A DNA stretch of 64,000 nucleotides from a virus. The notes beneath the pieces are model-generated. The model ran no database searches. It was not told the DNA's origin and worked only from the letters and a program-made list of their open reading frames with translations. The stretch covers positions 1 to 64,000 of the IMG/VR virus record IMGVR_UViG_3300035204_001773. The stretch is one strand, 5' to 3'. Shown here piece after piece: positions 134-16,402 of the stretch. Every line of letters begins with the position of its first letter. Position 1 is the stretch's first letter. Position numbers and translations under genes: made by a program.

Positions 134-523
134 TTATTTGTGTTTACTTAAAGATTTTATATAAGCCATTATTGCCTTTCTCTCATCATTTGTTGTCGGT
201 AATGGAGCCATTCCCGGTAGCGTTCCTTTAACAATTTTGGCAAAAGGTTTTTCTATTGACTCTAAGAAATACTCTTCATCTAAAACAACCTCTTTAATGG
301 GTCCGCCTATACCAATGTGGACCTCTCTTTTCTTTCCCCAAAAATCACCCATAAATTTGGGAGACTTTAATGCGTCACCCGCTGGGCATGGCACACTCTC
401 TTCTGTCTGATGGCACAAAGAGCAACTCTTGCTAATAAAAAGCTCTTTGCCTTTTTTAATGTTGTCGTCTGCTTGAGCAAGGCTAACAAACGCTAATAAT
501 AAAATTGGTAATGCTATATTCAT
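134..523 (-). CDS. Periplasmic c-type cytochrome resembling the CoxB cytochrome domain
   Basis: This 129-aa protein has a Sec signal peptide (about residues 1-18, ending SLAQA). It carries one haem-binding CxxCH motif (C34, C37, H38) and a likely axial Met at M105 in the segment LPGMAPLP. The segment with FWGKKREV, LDEEYFLESIEKP and AKIVKG matches the arrangement of the cytochrome c domain fused to subunit II of cytochrome c oxidases. The mature protein should be a small periplasmic or membrane-side electron carrier. It abuts the Lys-rich gene upstream (stop of one at the start of the next). Cytochromes c are rarely reported in phages. Haem attachment would depend on the host Ccm system. Family assignment is firm, physiological partner unknown. 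Confidence 0.85.
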   Translation of the reverse strand: MNIALPILLLAFVSLAQADDNIKKGKELFISKSCSLCHQTEESVPCPAGDALKSPKFMGDFWGKKREVHIGIGGPIKEVVLDEEYFLESIEKPFAKIVKGTLPGMAPLPTTNDERKAIMAYIKSLSKHK

Positions 524-657: not shown

Positions 658-840
658 TTATTCTCCTCCGTAACTTTTGTGTTCGTGCACTTCCCAGTTA
701 TCTAAAATCACCTTGGCTAACCAAAGTTGGAATGGAATAGCTGCAAATCCCAACGTGCATACGATTGCAATCATCCAGAGAGCAATCTTTCCATAATAAT
801 CACTAAGTCTAATATTTAATCTTGATTTATATCTTTTCAT
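658..840 (-). CDS. Small membrane protein, 60 aa
   Basis: The protein has a basic N-terminus (MKRYKSRLN) followed by a hydrophobic stretch of about 28 residues (roughly 19-46) and an acidic, His-containing tail. The predicted topology is a single membrane helix with N-in. It overlaps the upstream lipoprotein gene by 4 nt (ATGA), which supports co-translation. Function is not recognised. Confidence 0.6.
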   Translation of the reverse strand: MKRYKSRLNIRLSDYYGKIALWMIAIVCTLGFAAIPFQLWLAKVILDNWEVHEHKSYGGE

Positions 841-1031
841 TTTTTATTCTCTGTTATCCAGTGGTAAAGTGTGCTGCTACCGTGTCCATACCCGTGGGGT
901 AACGGGCGATAATCTTTTGTTTGTATTTCTGGTGGCTTACCCCAGCTTCTCGGAAAAGCCTTTCCATTGGGGCTACGGTATACTTTGCAGCCCGCTAATG
1001 TTATTAGTAATAATAAAATAATTAATTTCAT
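837..1031 (-). CDS. Small lipoprotein, 64 aa
   Basis: A signal peptide of class II is clear: MKLIILLLLITLAGC with lipobox L-A-G-C, giving a lipidated Cys15. The mature part (about 50 aa) is Pro/Gly/Tyr-rich (RPLPHGYGHGSS) and looks unstructured. It should be anchored in the inner or outer membrane. It shares 4-nt overlaps with genes on both sides. Small phage lipoproteins can serve as outer-membrane spanins or superinfection-exclusion factors, and the sequence does not decide between these. Confidence 0.75.
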   Translation of the reverse strand: MKLIILLLLITLAGCKVYRSPNGKAFPRSWGKPPEIQTKDYRPLPHGYGHGSSTLYHWITENKK

Positions 1032-1344: not shown

Positions 1345-2190
1345 TTATATGATAGGCTCAGCCATCTCGCAAAATCTACATAAAATGTCATCTGAATCAT
1401 TTTTCATTGCATTTTTTATTTTAATAAATTCTTTTCCTTGAAAAAGAGACTCGTGACTATCGGTGATTAGATTTCCCAATGTGTGTTTCAAGCCATAATC
1501 CATACAGCAGAGTTGCACGTCCCCATTGGGTAGAACTATATTGTGATTTAATTTAGGCATTGGATTGCATTGTATTTTTCCCCTTACTCTGTCTACTTTA
1601 TCGACGTTGTCTAAATTACTAGCTCTAGAAATCGGCATAAAATTAGGCAGCTTACCGACCAAGTCTTGGACGTCTTGGTGTGGTTCTCCCATGCCGTCCA
1701 TTGTCATAAAATATGCCGAAGCTATATTCTTAGAGATTAAATATTTTAATATGTTTTTATATTTCTCTGTAACTTTAATAGGCATCAAACCATTCTTATC
1801 TGGTAAATGGATCGTTAGCGGACAGAGCGGAGAAAAACTGATTGAAGATAATAAATCTACATCGTCAAGGCTAGCTCCAACTAGCGTAGTATAACAACAC
1901 ACGGAATAACCTGAGGTATACGCATATTTAATCATCCTAGCGCATTCTTTATTTAAGAACGGCTCTGCGTATCCAGAGAAATCAATTCGATAAGTCTTCG
2001 GTACTTTGTCTAATATTGTTACAAAGTCATCAAACGAAAGAAAATCATTTCTCCACGAAGGAACATGAGCATTCACGTAGCTTTTTGTTAAAAGTTCCTG
2101 AGGACAAATCTTACATCCAACAGCGCACCCCCTTTTCCCGATGTTGGTCGTGAACTCTACTGTGCCCTCAAATTGTTCATTTTGACTCAT
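1345..2190 (-). CDS. Radical SAM protein with SPASM/twitch-like C-terminal cysteines
   Basis: This 281-aa protein has the radical SAM cluster motif Cx3Cx2C near residues 21-28 (RGCAVGCKICP). It also has barrel elements such as RIDFSGYAEP and TMDGMGEPH. The C-terminal part carries further cysteines (QCNP, QLCCMDYG, LCRFCE) in the pattern of a SPASM or twitch domain that binds auxiliary Fe-S clusters. SPASM enzymes modify peptides or carbohydrates. Its stop is next to a small membrane gene, and it overlaps the upstream P-loop kinase gene by 4 nt, so the two are probably co-expressed. The substrate is unknown; a peptide or glycan target is an inference from the family. Confidence 0.8.
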   Translation of the reverse strand: MSQNEQFEGTVEFTTNIGKRGCAVGCKICPQELLTKSYVNAHVPSWRNDFLSFDDFVTILDKVPKTYRIDFSGYAEPFLNKECARMIKYAYTSGYSVCCYTTLVGASLDDVDLLSSISFSPLCPLTIHLPDKNGLMPIKVTEKYKNILKYLISKNIASAYFMTMDGMGEPHQDVQDLVGKLPNFMPISRASNLDNVDKVDRVRGKIQCNPMPKLNHNIVLPNGDVQLCCMDYGLKHTLGNLITDSHESLFQGKEFIKIKNAMKNDSDDILCRFCEMAEPII

Positions 2191-2624
2191 GATCTTAGTG
2201 TCGCAATTTTAGAGCGCAGAAGCTCCCAAGTGGTGTTGATGTCGCTATCTGTATTTAATACAAGCCTTGGATCACCGCACTCGAAGTCTTCAACGTGGTA
2301 TTCTTTTCTAAGTTCTCTTTTCGTGGTTAAAAGAATATCTACAAAATGCCCCTCATTATCCTCCTCGAGCTCTCTCCTAAATTGATTATAAGGGTTAACC
2401 AGCGTCATGACAACTGCCTCGGTGCGAGTCTTGCTTAAATACGTAGCTACAGCATTAGCCGCTCGAATATTCTTTTTTCTCCCACCAAAGCCATAGTCTC
2501 TATTAGTAAAAAATGATCTAAATTCATCTCCATCTATGTGGAAGGGGGTCATTAATGTTGCCACAAGTAACCTGCCTAGTGAGGTCTTGCCTGATCCGGG
2601 TTGACCATATAATACATAGATCAT
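2187..2624 (-). CDS. Adenylylsulfate-kinase-like P-loop kinase, short form
   Basis: This 145-aa protein opens with Walker A GQPGSGKTS. It then shows the CysC-like sequence FHIDGDEFR (compare LLDGDxxR), the helix KKNIRAANAVATYL and NPYNQFRREL (compare SPFxxxR). It is shorter than typical APS kinases (about 200 aa) and lacks the usual C-terminal YKKAR/GIxxPYE region. It may phosphorylate APS or another small substrate. It overlaps the radical SAM gene by 4 nt and sits 1 nt after the ExbD-like gene. The fold is well supported and the substrate is not. Confidence 0.7.
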   Translation of the reverse strand: MIYVLYGQPGSGKTSLGRLLVATLMTPFHIDGDEFRSFFTNRDYGFGGRKKNIRAANAVATYLSKTRTEAVVMTLVNPYNQFRRELEEDNEGHFVDILLTTKRELRKEYHVEDFECGDPRLVLNTDSDINTTWELLRSKIATLRS

Positions 2625-2625
2625 T

Positions 2626-3234
2626 TTATTCTTGTAAGGGGTTTACTAAATTGGCCTGTAATTCATTTATATCTAAAATCATTCCATTTTTATCTGTAGT
2701 GAAACGGAACGCCGTCTTTTGATCCCCCGTGGCCTCAAAGACTCTCTCTTTAACTATAACTTCCTTAAAGGGTTTTATTTTTATTAATTTGATTGTGGCT
2801 TTTGTAGGTCCGTCGTCTCTTTTTGCGTATACGTGAACCGTTACTATATTTTCCCCTTCTACCACGCCCCGAAATGAAACGATCTCCTCATTAAAGGGGA
2901 CGACGACACCTTGGTCCTCTTCTTCTAAACTATTATTCCTACGTTTACCTAAGGCATCGTGGTCCAAGCTTATTAAGCTCCCTTGTCCGCCCTCTCTTCT
3001 GTTGAAAGACACGATGTGTCCCGAGGCCGCTTGAACATAAAGATCTAAATCATCTTCACTTTCACCTTCCCAAGTTAATACTACTTCATAAATTACGTTC
3101 GGTGGGCGAGATTTAATTTTTTGCTCCTCCGTCTTGAGGAGAAAAAGAATCGCCACTAGCATTAACAAGCAACAAAACAGTACGTCAATGAATGGTCTAA
3201 ATGTGAAAAATTTTCTATTCCCTTTATTTATCAT
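2626..3234 (-). CDS. ExbD/TolR-like membrane protein with beta-rich periplasmic domain
   Basis: This 202-aa protein starts with a short basic cytoplasmic end and one membrane helix, FRPFIDVLFCCLLMLVAI. This matches the ExbD/TolR/MotB transmembrane segment including its proton-carrying Asp (D17). The periplasmic part is not the usual TolR/ExbD domain. It contains a DDLDLYVQAASGHIVSFN segment followed by GGQGSLISLDHD, which resembles the DxDLxV beta-sandwich proteins of the DUF2135/YfaP type, and then more beta-rich sequence. It overlaps the ExbB-like gene by 11 nt. The two together should form a proton-driven stator-like complex. The family of the helix is convincing; the domain name is tentative. 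Confidence 0.75.
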   Translation of the reverse strand: MINKGNRKFFTFRPFIDVLFCCLLMLVAILFLLKTEEQKIKSRPPNVIYEVVLTWEGESEDDLDLYVQAASGHIVSFNRREGGQGSLISLDHDALGKRRNNSLEEEDQGVVVPFNEEIVSFRGVVEGENIVTVHVYAKRDDGPTKATIKLIKIKPFKEVIVKERVFEATGDQKTAFRFTTDKNGMILDINELQANLVNPLQE

Positions 3235-3703
3235 GATAATCTAATTTACATTTTAAAATCATCAACTGAATTTGTAAAGGCAAACTGAAAACGATACCAC
3301 AAATCGTAGTATAAAAAGCCGTGTTAAGGCCAACTTTTAATCCAGAGACAATTTCACTTAAGGGCATTGTGCTATCTAAGCTCCCCTTCGTAGCAATGAC
3401 AAGACCGATTATAGTACCCAACAAACCTAGAGAAAAGAAGTGCTCCGCAGCAAACCATCCCAACTCAGCCCTCCTAGAGAGGACGAGGATTGCTTCTTGC
3501 TTTTTTTTCTCATTAATTCTATCCGCCAAATAACATAATTTTCCTATATATGCCGAAACAGAAACATACAGCATCATAATTAATATGGAAATATGTGAAA
3601 GATCATTTTTGATCACGGTTGAAACCATGCCCTTCATTTCTACCAATACCATTGCAGTGATAATTACCGCATTAACTAAAAACCATTTTGTAAAAGTCGT
3701 CAT
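3224..3703 (-). CDS. ExbB/TolQ/MotA-family proton-channel protein
   Basis: This 159-aa protein has three hydrophobic segments (about 5-30, 37-60 and 90-150). The conserved ExbB/TolQ core is visible: GLLGTIIGLVIAT, then SGLKVGLNTAFYTTICGIVFSLP, with the polar Thr residues that line the proton path. It is shorter than host ExbB (about 240 aa) and has almost no cytoplasmic tail, unlike the long-tailed ZorA of Zorya defence systems. The ExbD-like partner follows with an 11-nt overlap. The likely role is energy coupling across the host envelope by proton motive force. The target is unknown. Confidence 0.8.
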   Translation of the reverse strand: MTTFTKWFLVNAVIITAMVLVEMKGMVSTVIKNDLSHISILIMMLYVSVSAYIGKLCYLADRINEKKKQEAILVLSRRAELGWFAAEHFFSLGLLGTIIGLVIATKGSLDSTMPLSEIVSGLKVGLNTAFYTTICGIVFSLPLQIQLMILKCKLDYHDK

Positions 3704-4368: not shown

Positions 4369-5523
4369 TTAAGTATTTTTTCCAAATATCTCATTCGATT
4401 GTTGAGTTGTCCTAACAAAGGTCGCGCACTTCGGCATGTCCTTCAAATTTTTAGCTCCAATATAGGTGCAAGTTGAACGAATACCGCCGAGAATATTTTC
4501 AATTGTGTTCTTTATTAAGCCCCTGTGTTTAATTCTTACTGTCTTACCCTCTGACGAACGATAATTGGCAACGCCGCCATGATACTTATTCATGGCCGTG
4601 TCAGAGCTCATTCCGTAAAATGTTTTATACTTCTCTCCGTCTACTTCTTCCTCTTGTCCTTCTGATTCAGTATGACCTGCCAACATCCCGCCCAGCATAA
4701 CAAAATCAGCACCAGCACAAAAGGCCTTGGCCACATCGCCAGCACATACGCACCCACCGTCAGCCATAATATGCCCACCAATCCCATGAGCAGCATCCGC
4801 GCATTCAATGACTGCGCTGAGTTGAGGGTAACCGACACCAGTTTGAATACGAGTAGTACAGACAGACCCGCCGCCAATACCCACTTTAACAATATCTGCT
4901 CCACTTAGTAATATCTCCTCCGTCATTTCGCCAGTGACGACATTACCCGCAATGATAATAAGCGCGGGGTGTTCGTCTCTGACTCGTTTAATAAAATCGC
5001 AAAACCTTGATGTGTATCCGTTTGCTGCATCTATACATACGAATTGTGTATGATAAAAATTCCAAGTAAGATCACGGAGGTAATCTACATCATCGTATTC
5101 TTTTTCATTATATTTGATACCAATAGATGGAGATAGATGTTCATAAATTCTATTATGTGCGCACCTTGAGTTTGGATCATGCTTCCAAACAGTACCCTTC
5201 CTTTGCTCTGGGCTTTTGTAGACTCCATAGCCGTTTAATTTATGTAGCCATTTTTTTAAATCGTGATGCTTGTTAATACAGGTCAACATATGATAGTTGG
5301 CGAGAGCCTTAGCAGTTTCAAAAGTCCCAACAGTGTCCATATTTGAAGCTACAATTGGAACGCCTGTCCATCCGTAGGCCTCGGGGTCGGAGCCTTCGCC
5401 ACCAGCGTTCTTGAATTTAAAAGTACGCATCAAGTCAACATCCCTGCGGGAGGTAAGCTCAGAACGCTTGGGACGCAGAAGAACATCCTTATAGTCCAGC
5501 TTTATATCGGATTCGATTCGCAC
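4369..5523 (-). CDS. guaC: GMP reductase
   Basis: This 384-aa protein reduces GMP to IMP with NADPH. Family signatures are all present: LDYKDVLLRPKRS near the N-terminus, PIVASNMDTVGT, INKHHDL, the (beta/alpha)8 core AGNVVTGEM, the catalytic loop GIGGGSVCTTR, MADGGC, MLGGMLAGH and FYGMSSDTAM. The protein lacks the CBS domains of IMP dehydrogenase. The start codon is GTG. The N-terminal match to other GMP reductases fixes it, and a near-consensus promoter ends 7 nt before it, so the mRNA appears leaderless. It probably recycles host guanylate for phage DNA synthesis. Confidence 0.95.
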   Translation of the reverse strand: MRIESDIKLDYKDVLLRPKRSELTSRRDVDLMRTFKFKNAGGEGSDPEAYGWTGVPIVASNMDTVGTFETAKALANYHMLTCINKHHDLKKWLHKLNGYGVYKSPEQRKGTVWKHDPNSRCAHNRIYEHLSPSIGIKYNEKEYDDVDYLRDLTWNFYHTQFVCIDAANGYTSRFCDFIKRVRDEHPALIIIAGNVVTGEMTEEILLSGADIVKVGIGGGSVCTTRIQTGVGYPQLSAVIECADAAHGIGGHIMADGGCVCAGDVAKAFCAGADFVMLGGMLAGHTESEGQEEEVDGEKYKTFYGMSSDTAMNKYHGGVANYRSSEGKTVRIKHRGLIKNTIENILGGIRSTCTYIGAKNLKDMPKCATFVRTTQQSNEIFGKNT

Positions 5524-7696: not shown

Positions 7697-8143
7697 CTAA
7701 TATTTCTTTTTATACTTCCCAGCCTTCTTTCCTTTTTTATTTTTCTTGCTTTTTGTGCCCCAGTCTATCTCACTAAAATTATCGTCATATTTCTTCTTGT
7801 TTATATTTCCTCGAGCGCAAGACGGATTCGTCTGGTTTATGTAAATTGAATCGTAACCTCTTTTGATTATTTTAGCGTCCTGCTTGTTTCTGGGGTTCAA
7901 ACGTCTATTCGGAGCGCACCAACTACCAAAATTAGATGGTGTACCAATGCCAGCAGCTTTCCTTTTCGAGTCGTCGTACGTTTTGGAAGCCTTCGCTCCC
8001 ACGTCCTCGGGTCTTGTGGGGTTAAAAGTCGCATTGCCGCCCTCAAACTGTCTGTCGTTCATGGTGGTGTGATTTTGAGCAACAGCATTTCGCTTGTTTT
8101 TGCCCGAAACCATCTTCTTTCGAGTATTTTTTCCTTTTTTCAT
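7697..8143 (-). CDS. Lys/Arg/Asn-rich basic protein, 148 aa
   Basis: The protein has strongly basic N- and C-terminal tails (MKKGKNTRKKMVSGKNKR and KKNKKGKKAGKYKKKY) around a low-complexity central part with two cysteines (SWCAPNRR, PSCARG). It is likely disordered and nucleic-acid-binding. Its ATG overlaps the stop of the 53-aa gene upstream. It is not recognised. Confidence 0.55.
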   Translation of the reverse strand: MKKGKNTRKKMVSGKNKRNAVAQNHTTMNDRQFEGGNATFNPTRPEDVGAKASKTYDDSKRKAAGIGTPSNFGSWCAPNRRLNPRNKQDAKIIKRGYDSIYINQTNPSCARGNINKKKYDDNFSEIDWGTKSKKNKKGKKAGKYKKKY

Positions 8144-8301
8144 TTTTCAACAATATAAAGTTCTTCTGGTTCGCATTTTTTAATATATTCATTAGCCATT
8201 TTTAGCCCCTCTTCGGTGTGAGGGAAGGCTCCGTATCTATAATTTTTATCTCTACTAAGGACTAGATAATATTTCTTTTTATTCTTTTTTTTCTTTTTCA
8301 T
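8140..8301 (-). CDS. Hypothetical protein, 53 aa
   Basis: A 53-codon frame lies between two genes. Its ATG (8301, or the adjacent one at 8304) is inside the end of the 62-aa gene and its TGA overlaps the ATG of the Lys-rich gene. After a poly-Lys start the product has a compact-looking sequence (KYYLVLSRDKNYRYGAFPHT, then TEEGLKMANEYIKK). The overlapping stop and start codons support it. Function unknown. Confidence 0.55.
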   Translation of the reverse strand: MKKKKKNKKKYYLVLSRDKNYRYGAFPHTEEGLKMANEYIKKCEPEELYIVEK

Positions 8302-8467
8302 CATTTAAAAGTTTTTTTAATATTTTAAGATGAAAAGTCATCCAGCTTTCGCCAACCGCCTCTTCCCCTTTCCCTTCTCGTAGGGCTTTAATCTTGGACT
8401 GCATATCTTCTTCTTCTGAATGTTCTATAATTTGCAATAATAAGTATTTCGCTTTCTTATCTACCAT
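8279..8467 (-). CDS. Helical hypothetical protein, 62 aa
   Basis: The protein is charged and helical (MVDKKAKYLLLQIIEHSEEED, ending LLNDEKEKKE). No membrane segment is seen. It lies downstream of the Hsp20 terminator, with no promoter recognised in the short gap. It is not recognised. Confidence 0.5.
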   Translation of the reverse strand: MVDKKAKYLLLQIIEHSEEEDMQSKIKALREGKGEEAVGESWMTFHLKILKKLLNDEKEKKE

Positions 8468-8597: not shown

Positions 8598-8960
8598 CTA
8601 GGTGATTTCTAATTCAATGCTTTTTGCTTTTTTTTCTTTATCTACCTTTACAGACAGCAAGCCGTTTTCCATTTTGCTTGATATAGTGGAAGGATCGCAC
8701 CCGTCAGGCAAAATGAAAGAATAAGAGGCTGAGCTTTCATCTTTCTTTGCCGTAATGGAAACAACTCCATCTGCTACTCTAGCATTAATATGTTCTTTTG
8801 AGAAACCGGCAAGCGGAACCCAATATTCATAATTGTCATCATTTTCTTTATAATTTACATCGCTTCGTCTCCAAAACGAATTATCCCCTCTTGAAAATAG
8901 GCTATCCCACTCATCGAAAAGGTTCCCAACATTGTTATTGTTTAGTCTTAAAGCTAACAT
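8598..8960 (-). CDS. Hsp20/alpha-crystallin small heat-shock protein
   Basis: The start is placed at the ATG at 8960 (MLALRLNNNN), giving 120 aa. The frame stays open upstream through hairpin sequences that are clearly not coding. The alpha-crystallin domain spans about residues 40-118, with YEYWVPLAGFSKEHINARV, DGVVSITA, SYSFILPDGCDPSTI and NGLLSVKV. The C-terminal IxI is represented by SIELEIT. These proteins are ATP-independent holdases. Phages use them in capsid or tail assembly or for proteostasis. A sigma54-like promoter lies just upstream, and a terminator downstream makes this a single-gene unit. Confidence 0.85.
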   Translation of the reverse strand: MLALRLNNNNVGNLFDEWDSLFSRGDNSFWRRSDVNYKENDDNYEYWVPLAGFSKEHINARVADGVVSITAKKDESSASYSFILPDGCDPSTISSKMENGLLSVKVDKEKKAKSIELEIT

Positions 8961-8972
8961 GAGTTTATACAA

Positions 8973-8988
8973 GCATGAAGCGTGCCAA
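8973..8988 (-). promoter_or_regulatory. Sigma54-like promoter candidate for hsp20
   Basis: Read on the minus strand, TTGGCACG (8988-8981) is an exact -24 element. The -12 element ATGCT follows, with the GC dinucleotide at the required spacing. The predicted transcription start falls about 1 nt before the ATG. Only one base of the -12 box departs from TTGCW. No activator site is identified. Confidence 0.45.
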
Positions 8989-9015
8989 CTTTTTTTTAGG
9001 GAAAAACGGAAGAAT

Positions 9016-9064
9016 GTCTCTTGTGTGAGACAGTGCGTCTCACTTTTGAGACGCTCTTTTTTTT
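9016..9064 (+). terminator. Tandem hairpins with a T-tract, plus-strand terminator-like
   Basis: A first hairpin (GTCTC/GAGAC, 9016-9031) is followed by a stronger 8-bp stem with a CTTT loop (9035-9042 and 9047-9054), then TC and eight T. It points along the plus strand, against the hsp20 gene, in the 263-nt leader (8961-9223). No plus-strand gene is visible upstream. It might end a short antisense RNA or act as a regulatory structure upstream of hsp20. Confidence 0.55.
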
Positions 9065-9223
9065 GCCAAGGGACTTTTTGGCTCACTCTTACGTTTCGAG
9101 CCAGACCGAAAGGTAAGCGAGGGAGCGGTGACGCTGCCACCCCAGTCAATAGAATTATAATTGTCTCTAAATTTTTTAGAGAAACAGTTTCTTGGTTTAT
9201 CCCCTTTTCCGGCACTCATAATT

Positions 9224-9421
9224 TTATACAGATGGGACGATTTCTATATTAACTTCTTCACCTGTAATAAAGCCCTCTTCAACCATGTAAGAGGCAATGG
9301 AAATAGCTTCCTCGTCAGTAATTTCAAAACCACCCCTCTCACATATCTTAAGCATGCCATCTTCAGATACTAAACACGGCAAGCCAAGCACTGTCAAATT
9401 TCTTTTTTTGGGAGACTGCAT
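9224..9421 (-). CDS. Hypothetical protein, 65 aa
   Basis: The protein is compact, with a likely beta-hairpin start (RNLTVLGLPCLVSEDG) and an acidic helix (TDEEAISIASYMVEEGF). It is divergent from the plus-strand gene at 9466, with an inverted repeat between them. It is not recognised. Confidence 0.55.
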   Translation of the reverse strand: MQSPKKRNLTVLGLPCLVSEDGMLKICERGGFEITDEEAISIASYMVEEGFITGEEVNIEIVPSV

Positions 9422-9432
9422 TACAGATATAC

Positions 9433-9456
9433 TTACACTGATTTAGTTACGTGTAA
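9433..9456. promoter_or_regulatory. Inverted repeat between divergent genes (possible operator)
   Basis: TTACAC and GTGTAA arms (6 bp) are separated by 12 nt, centred in the 44-nt space between the divergent starts at 9421 and 9466. The size suits a dimeric regulator binding site. A weak plus-strand promoter (CTTACA, 16 nt, TAAACT) overlaps it. Confidence 0.3.
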
Positions 9457-9465
9457 ACTTTATTA

Positions 9466-9783
9466 ATGAATCTTATTATTGTATCCAAATTAACGTGCAA
9501 CGAAGGCTTATACTTTCGTTATATAAGTATGATGGCTAAACAAGACTTAAATTACTCCGTGTTAATAGAAAGCAACGAAGATAAAATAGATTATTATTAC
9601 AAAAAACTTAAAACGCATGGGTGGTTCGATTTTGTAGATGACTTTGTAACACCAGAACATAATGAAGACGGGGTTAGAATAGATAATGAATTAAATTACC
9701 CAAGAACCATCAAAGTAGATAAGATAACTTGCGAGAACACGTTGAGTTTATTAGGTCAAATTAAATTTTTTGTAGATGTATAA
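9466..9783 (+). CDS. Hypothetical protein, 105 aa
   Basis: The protein has an alpha/beta appearance (MNLIIVSKLTCNEGLYFRY, LNYSVLIESNEDKIDYYYKK, WFDFVDDFVTPEH), which could be a Rossmann-type or HAD-like half domain. It overlaps the glycosyltransferase-like gene by 8 nt and is probably co-translated with it. The pair is an isolated plus-strand insertion in a minus-strand region. Function is not recognised. Confidence 0.55.
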   Translation: MNLIIVSKLTCNEGLYFRYISMMAKQDLNYSVLIESNEDKIDYYYKKLKTHGWFDFVDDFVTPEHNEDGVRIDNELNYPRTIKVDKITCENTLSLLGQIKFFVDV

Positions 9784-16001: not shown

Positions 16002-16402
16002 TGGTGGAAGCGGCGGGAGTCGAACCCGCGTCTTTAAAGCCATCGGCTTAAATATACTACAAGCTTAGTCAGTGTTAATTTTCGTGCTTCATCACTGACA
16101 ACTACACACGAGGTTGGAGGCACTTTATTTATCCTAGACTCCTCACCCTTCCTAGTTTTTTGCTCGCTGTCGACGCCCTATCTCCTTAACGAGCATCCAG
16201 AGTAGGACGGGGCAGAACTAAGCTGCCAGCGCGGCTTCTTGGAAACCGAAACGAGCGAGAATCTCGTCCGCTTCTGCTACCGAAGGAGCCATGTCAACAT
16301 TATCGTTGGCATATATGTTTTTGACAGTTTTTTTAAGAGGCCAACTATCATCCTCTGCTTGCAATTTAGCGTAAGGTTCTAAATCGAATCCAGTACGCTC
16401 CC
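16002..16402 (-). ncRNA. ssrA: tmRNA (one-piece) with 30-codon tag
   Basis: This is a 401-nt transfer-messenger RNA. The ends pair as a tRNA-Ala-like acceptor (GGGAGCG/CGCTTCC, then A and encoded CCA). The T arm is GCGGG-TTCGACT-CCCGC, and the hallmark TGACTAAGCTTGTAGTA and GTTGGCCTCTTAAAAAAAC are present. The tag frame runs from a GCC resume codon at 16310 to TAG ending at 16218. It begins ANDNVDMA and ends QEAALAA, 30 codons in all, much longer than the 10-codon tag of E. coli. It would rescue stalled ribosomes and mark products for proteolysis. Confidence 0.95.

Follow-up and report, generated by a model that had tools for sequence, protein, structure and literature searches.

Q and R, two overlapping genes of the window (the whole stretch of 64,000 nucleotides analysed here), belong to a conserved and undescribed three-gene module, Q-R-T, in which T is a third small membrane protein, encoded after Q and R in cultured Rhizobium phages. 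In bacterial loci, Q is present in 82 of 82 and T in 81 of 82, and the reading frames mostly overlap; the strong-match loci fetched from independent genome samples contain Q in 28 of 28 cases and T in 26 of 28. No fourth conserved gene was found across 80 bacterial loci. In phages, the distances of Q, R and T correlate with one another (0.71–0.77).

The literature search returned no paper on Q-R-T and none on a phage-encoded pair of the TolQ/ExbB type, most subscription journals being outside that search. No PHROGs family matches the phage members that were tested, and none of Q, R and T scores above the cut-off of an NCBIfam family.

The Q/R gene pair

The window also encodes a ribonucleotide reductase, a UvsX-like recombinase, a DnaB-like helicase and a DNA polymerase; the virus record of which it is part is 109,211 bases long and may be a fragment. 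A first-pass annotation of this DNA had described two open reading frames that share 11 nucleotides. Both are indeed present (Table 1), the motifs that it quoted are found in them (GLLGTIIGL and TAFYTTICGI in Q, FIDVLF with Asp17 in R, and DLDLYV at residues 62–67 of R), and the overlap may couple the translation of Q to that of R. A Q-R overlap recurs in 78 of the 82 bacterial loci. The survey of related phage contigs that the annotation had proposed gives the same picture: both genes are present in 25 of the 25 distinct related viral contigs that were found with either gene. The pair is not a chance association of reading frames, since Q clears the cut-off of the Pfam family MotA_ExbB.

Table 1. 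Coordinates of the Q/R pair and of neighbouring genes (window positions), and of the genes that follow T in three bacterial loci (locus positions)
Feature	Position	Strand	Remarks
Periplasmic c-type cytochrome	134-523	-	PF00034 above cut-off; CSLCH motif; signal-peptide-like start
Lipoprotein	837-1031	-	64 residues; no Pfam match
Radical SAM / SPASM-domain protein	1345-2190	-	directly after the kinase-like gene
P-loop kinase-like gene	2187-2624	-	APS_kinase PF01583, 31.4 bits; directly downstream of R
R	2626-3234	-	202 aa single-pass partner; Asp17 and periplasmic DUF2135-type beta sandwich
Q/R reading-frame overlap	3224-3234	-	11 nt shared
Q	3224-3703	-	159 aa MotA/TolQ/ExbB-like channel subunit; four predicted transmembrane helices
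IMP dehydrogenase/GMP reductase homologue	4369-5523	-	phrog_9582; recurs near Q-R in several relatives
tmRNA gene	16002-16402	-	long predicted tag of 30 residues, ends ALAA
Post-T lipoprotein gene, L227	6328-7116
Post-T lipoprotein gene, L228	5752-6444
Post-T lipoprotein gene, L202	4636-5331

Q, the channel subunit

Judged by its sequence, Q is a member of the MotA/TolQ/ExbB stator superfamily, as the annotation had proposed from its polar channel helices. It scores 25.5 bits against PF01618, whose curated cut-off is 22.9, and the same family is matched by 38 of 40 Q relatives (E ≤ 0.1, alignment of 40). When the Q family profile is compared to the PDB, it matches MotA (2.4e-8), ZorA (2e-7), TolQ (1.2e-6) and PomA (1e-4), and its comparison with a TolQ/ExbB set by hhalign gives 96.7%. 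Gly96 is kept in all 191 relatives and Thr133 in 187 of 191, while position 97 is occupied by Thr in 153 relatives and by Asn in 36.

The hydropathy profile of Q has peaks at residues 13–31, 35–53, 85–103 and 132–150, which corresponds to four helices, and leaves a cytoplasmic loop of about 30 residues only, in agreement with the near-absent cytoplasmic tail described earlier. Phage Q proteins are about 130–210 residues long (medians 141–159); the bacterial median is about 202, based on estimated start codons.

R and its periplasmic domain

The annotation had called R ExbD-like, which holds for its architecture, a single N-terminal helix with an aspartate, and not for profile homology beyond that residue and the topology. 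R as a member of the ExbD/TolR family by sequence has to be rejected: it scores 14.7 bits against Pfam ExbD (PF02472, curated cut-off 25.4), and hhalign detects no profile homology between its transmembrane segment and ExbD/TolR (1.4–1.5%, with an ExbD set of 9 sequences). Asp17 is nevertheless kept in 192 of 197 loci, five of the 197 alignment rows having no Asp. Like Thr133 of Q, this residue, on which the earlier reading depended, is retained in almost all homologues.

The periplasmic domain of R is all-beta and related to DUF2135, rather than of ExbD/TolR or OmpA type. The AlphaFold2 model (pLDDT 88.9) consists of a helix at residues 13–36 followed only by beta strands, between residues 49 and 190. 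The R profile matches the C-terminal end of VIT-TPR-DUF2135 proteins in an HMM search, and hhalign aligns the R domain with DUF2135 proteins with a probability of 94%. A fold search of the PDB with R gave no TolR, ExbD or OmpA-type structure among the matches listed; the solved structures that come closest are DUF4425-type beta sandwiches, and these matches are weak (E about 1e-3, TM about 0.3). In BFVD, five viral matches are below 1e-3, and most of them are unnamed. The non-TolR beta domain that had been noticed in R can thus be named as DUF2135-type, from the model and the profile comparison. Kinship of this domain with TerD, which was suggested by a motif and one weak Pfam match, was discarded, the profile comparison giving only 6%.

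T, the third gene of the module

The model of T (pLDDT 89.9) shows a membrane hairpin and a small beta domain, for which a fold search of the PDB gave no significant match. T is absent from the 109,211-base record. We predict that the T gene of this phage has probably been cut off by the edge of the contig, because 133 bases separate the cytochrome c gene from the start of the record, while in the relative L004 the cytochrome is at 7923-8312 and T at 8922-9500, that is about 0.6 kb past the cytochrome, and T is present in 7 of 7 large R-bearing marine contigs. T was found in none of 20 contigs related by their polymerase, the single R-bearing one of which has R near the contig end.

Distribution and origin

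The module occurs in the Rhizobium phage 16-3, in Pootjesviridae phages, in Azospirillum replicons and in many proteobacterial genomes. In the temperate phage 16-3, p038, p040 and p042 are Q, R and T, respectively. In one genome sample, 28 of 398 Proteobacteria have an R match, in 16 cases with E below 1e-30; in a sample of alphaproteobacteria, the class to which Azospirillum belongs, the figure is 65 of 385, with E below 1e-25 in 56 cases. The weak matches of these samples include DUF2135 domains of larger proteins. Some of the genomes with an R match are as small as 0.8–1.8 Mb, and several of the fetched loci have a GC content of 27–35%. The annotation had missed that the pair is no speciality of phages: Q-R-T is a family carried on the chromosomes of many proteobacteria.

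In a tree of 108 R sequences, in which the bootstrap had not settled, the phage rows are scattered over several places. The clade of the window and the virulent Rhizobium phages group with bacterial sequences, including those of small genomes, and the 16-3-like phages are in another group. The branches with good support require at least six label changes for the rows from viral contigs. This tree is most simply read as repeated exchange between bacteria and phages. Since many bacterial chromosomes and several unrelated phage lineages carry the module, phages appear to have repeatedly acquired a host cell-envelope machine.

Neighbouring genes

The genes found around the module point to the envelope, and not to one single role in phages. 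In one bacterial group (L202, L203, L219 and L226–L230) a lipoprotein of about 230 residues is encoded directly after T; it is a candidate for the outer-membrane partner of the module. In 37 phage loci, a gene coding for an HtrA-like trypsin-type protease lies close to the module, in most cases immediately upstream of Q (at 3720-4445 in L164, for example). The post-T lipoprotein has a YFPL..G..W.Y motif and, in some cases, a weak DUF3108-like match. The annotation had remarked that there is no TonB nearby; indeed, neither TonB_C nor OmpA domains were found in the whole 109,211-base record, which may be a fragment.

The kinase-like gene next to R is present in most related loci, at a position that varies and can be several kb away; it was considered as a core part and rejected, its linkage to Q-R being only loose. 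A cytochrome is also near Q-R in L002/L032, L004/L028, L020 and L024; that of the window presumably resembles the cytochrome c domain of oxidase subunit II. The 64-residue lipoprotein of the window has a C-terminal part, SWGKPPEIQTKDYRPLP.GYG.GSSTLY.WI, which is strongly conserved in a dozen related contigs. The phage has four tRNA genes besides the tmRNA.

Comparison with known motors

The ion-driven 5:2 motors include MotAB, PomAB, AglRQS, GldLM, ZorAB, SiiAB, TolQR and ExbBD (PMC12204202, PMC12905483). Like TolQR and ExbBD, the system has adjacent or overlapping genes, a Q that can be aligned to TolQ/ExbB along the polar helices, and a partner that combines one N-terminal transmembrane helix, an Asp and a periplasmic domain. 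It differs from them in the four predicted helices of Q and the near lack of a cytoplasmic domain in this protein, in the DUF2135-type domain that R has instead of the TolR/ExbD fold, and in an extra subunit, T; TonB is neither in the record nor recognised in the module. The four-helix topology of Q is that of MotAB, PomAB and SiiAB, and MotA is its best PDB profile match; however, the record has no OmpA-type domain, and no flagellar or type I secretion partner is conserved beside Q-R-T.

With ZorAB the module shares a stator-type core, and ZorA is among the best PDB profile matches of Q, but it has neither the long ZorA tail nor the OmpA domain of ZorB nor a conserved effector gene. The Zorya-type kinship that had been suggested is not borne out: Q has only 159 residues, and the ZorA models remain far below their cut-off (31 of 500 bits). 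Last, YfaP-like and VIT-TPR-DUF2135 proteins have a beta domain related to that of R, with a DLDLxV-type motif; in contrast to R, the DUF2135 proteins examined either contain VIT and TPR domains or are single proteins of larger size, and the family has no Q partner.

Possible functions of the module

We consider it rather likely that Q and R form the core of a minimal proton-driven motor of the inner membrane, of the Q-R-T family, which acts on the envelope. By analogy with TolQR, ExbBD and MotAB, several Q subunits would encircle the R helices, protons would cross the Q/R interface via Asp17 of R and the polar Gly/Thr helices of Q, and their passage would move R. The DUF2135-type domain of R, together with T, may then relay the movement to the periplasm or the outer membrane. 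The phage copy would probably supplement or replace the host system, and so keep or remodel the envelope in infection. The stoichiometry, the proton flow, the force output and the role in phages are all inferred. Four observations count against a motor: the R helix has no profile homology to ExbD/TolR (1.5%), the Asp is lacking in five rows, T is missing from the record, and the cytoplasmic part of Q is nearly absent. In known motors, the cytoplasmic part of the channel subunit serves as an interface.

The lack of ExbD homology in the transmembrane segment of R and the tiny cytoplasmic part of Q would also fit an ion-gated sensor or channel rather than a motor, the DUF2135-type domain of R sensing a periplasmic ligand and gating Q, and DUF2135 is found in VIT-TPR proteins too; yet the Asp and Gly/Thr signature is kept almost throughout, as expected of a coupled stator, and we regard such a sensor as quite improbable. 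Superinfection exclusion or defence, where a phage motor would alter the envelope and block DNA injection by rivals, or sense them, in a Zorya-like manner, is unlikely. It would fit the position of the module of phage 16-3, between immX and attP/int, a possible site of accessory genes, as well as the weak ZorA matches of Q and the accessory nature of the module, R being present in only 1 of the 20 large relatives by DNA polymerase. On the other hand, the lack of a ZorB-type OmpA domain in the record, the low scores of the ZorA models, the absence of a conserved fourth gene beside the bacterial modules and the many bacterial chromosomes that also carry the module all argue against exclusion.

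The presence of the module on bacterial chromosomes also speaks against a function in lysis or release, in which it would disrupt or loosen the outer membrane at a late stage of infection. Some members of the temperate group do encode a lysozyme and an Rz1-like lipoprotein about 2–4 kb upstream of Q-R-T on the same strand, but in the virulent Rhizobium phages the module is surrounded by genes of replication (gyrase, late sigma factor, clamp) and the annotated holin of phage 16-3 is far off, at the right end; an aid to lysis is thus quite improbable. Returning to the proton-driven motor, the broader proposal that Q-R-T is a new class of trans-envelope motor, with an output domain of its own and a third subunit, which phages have taken up several times to control the envelope against rivals or for release, is one that we find doubtful.

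Significance

If it is a motor, Q-R-T would extend the list of ion-driven 5:2 motors by a further family. The family is common in alphaproteobacteria and also occurs in cultured phages whose genetics has long been studied, such as 16-3, which makes its function directly testable. The Q of several phages, with about 130–160 residues, may represent a channel subunit of very small size, from which one could learn what the coupling mechanism requires at a minimum.
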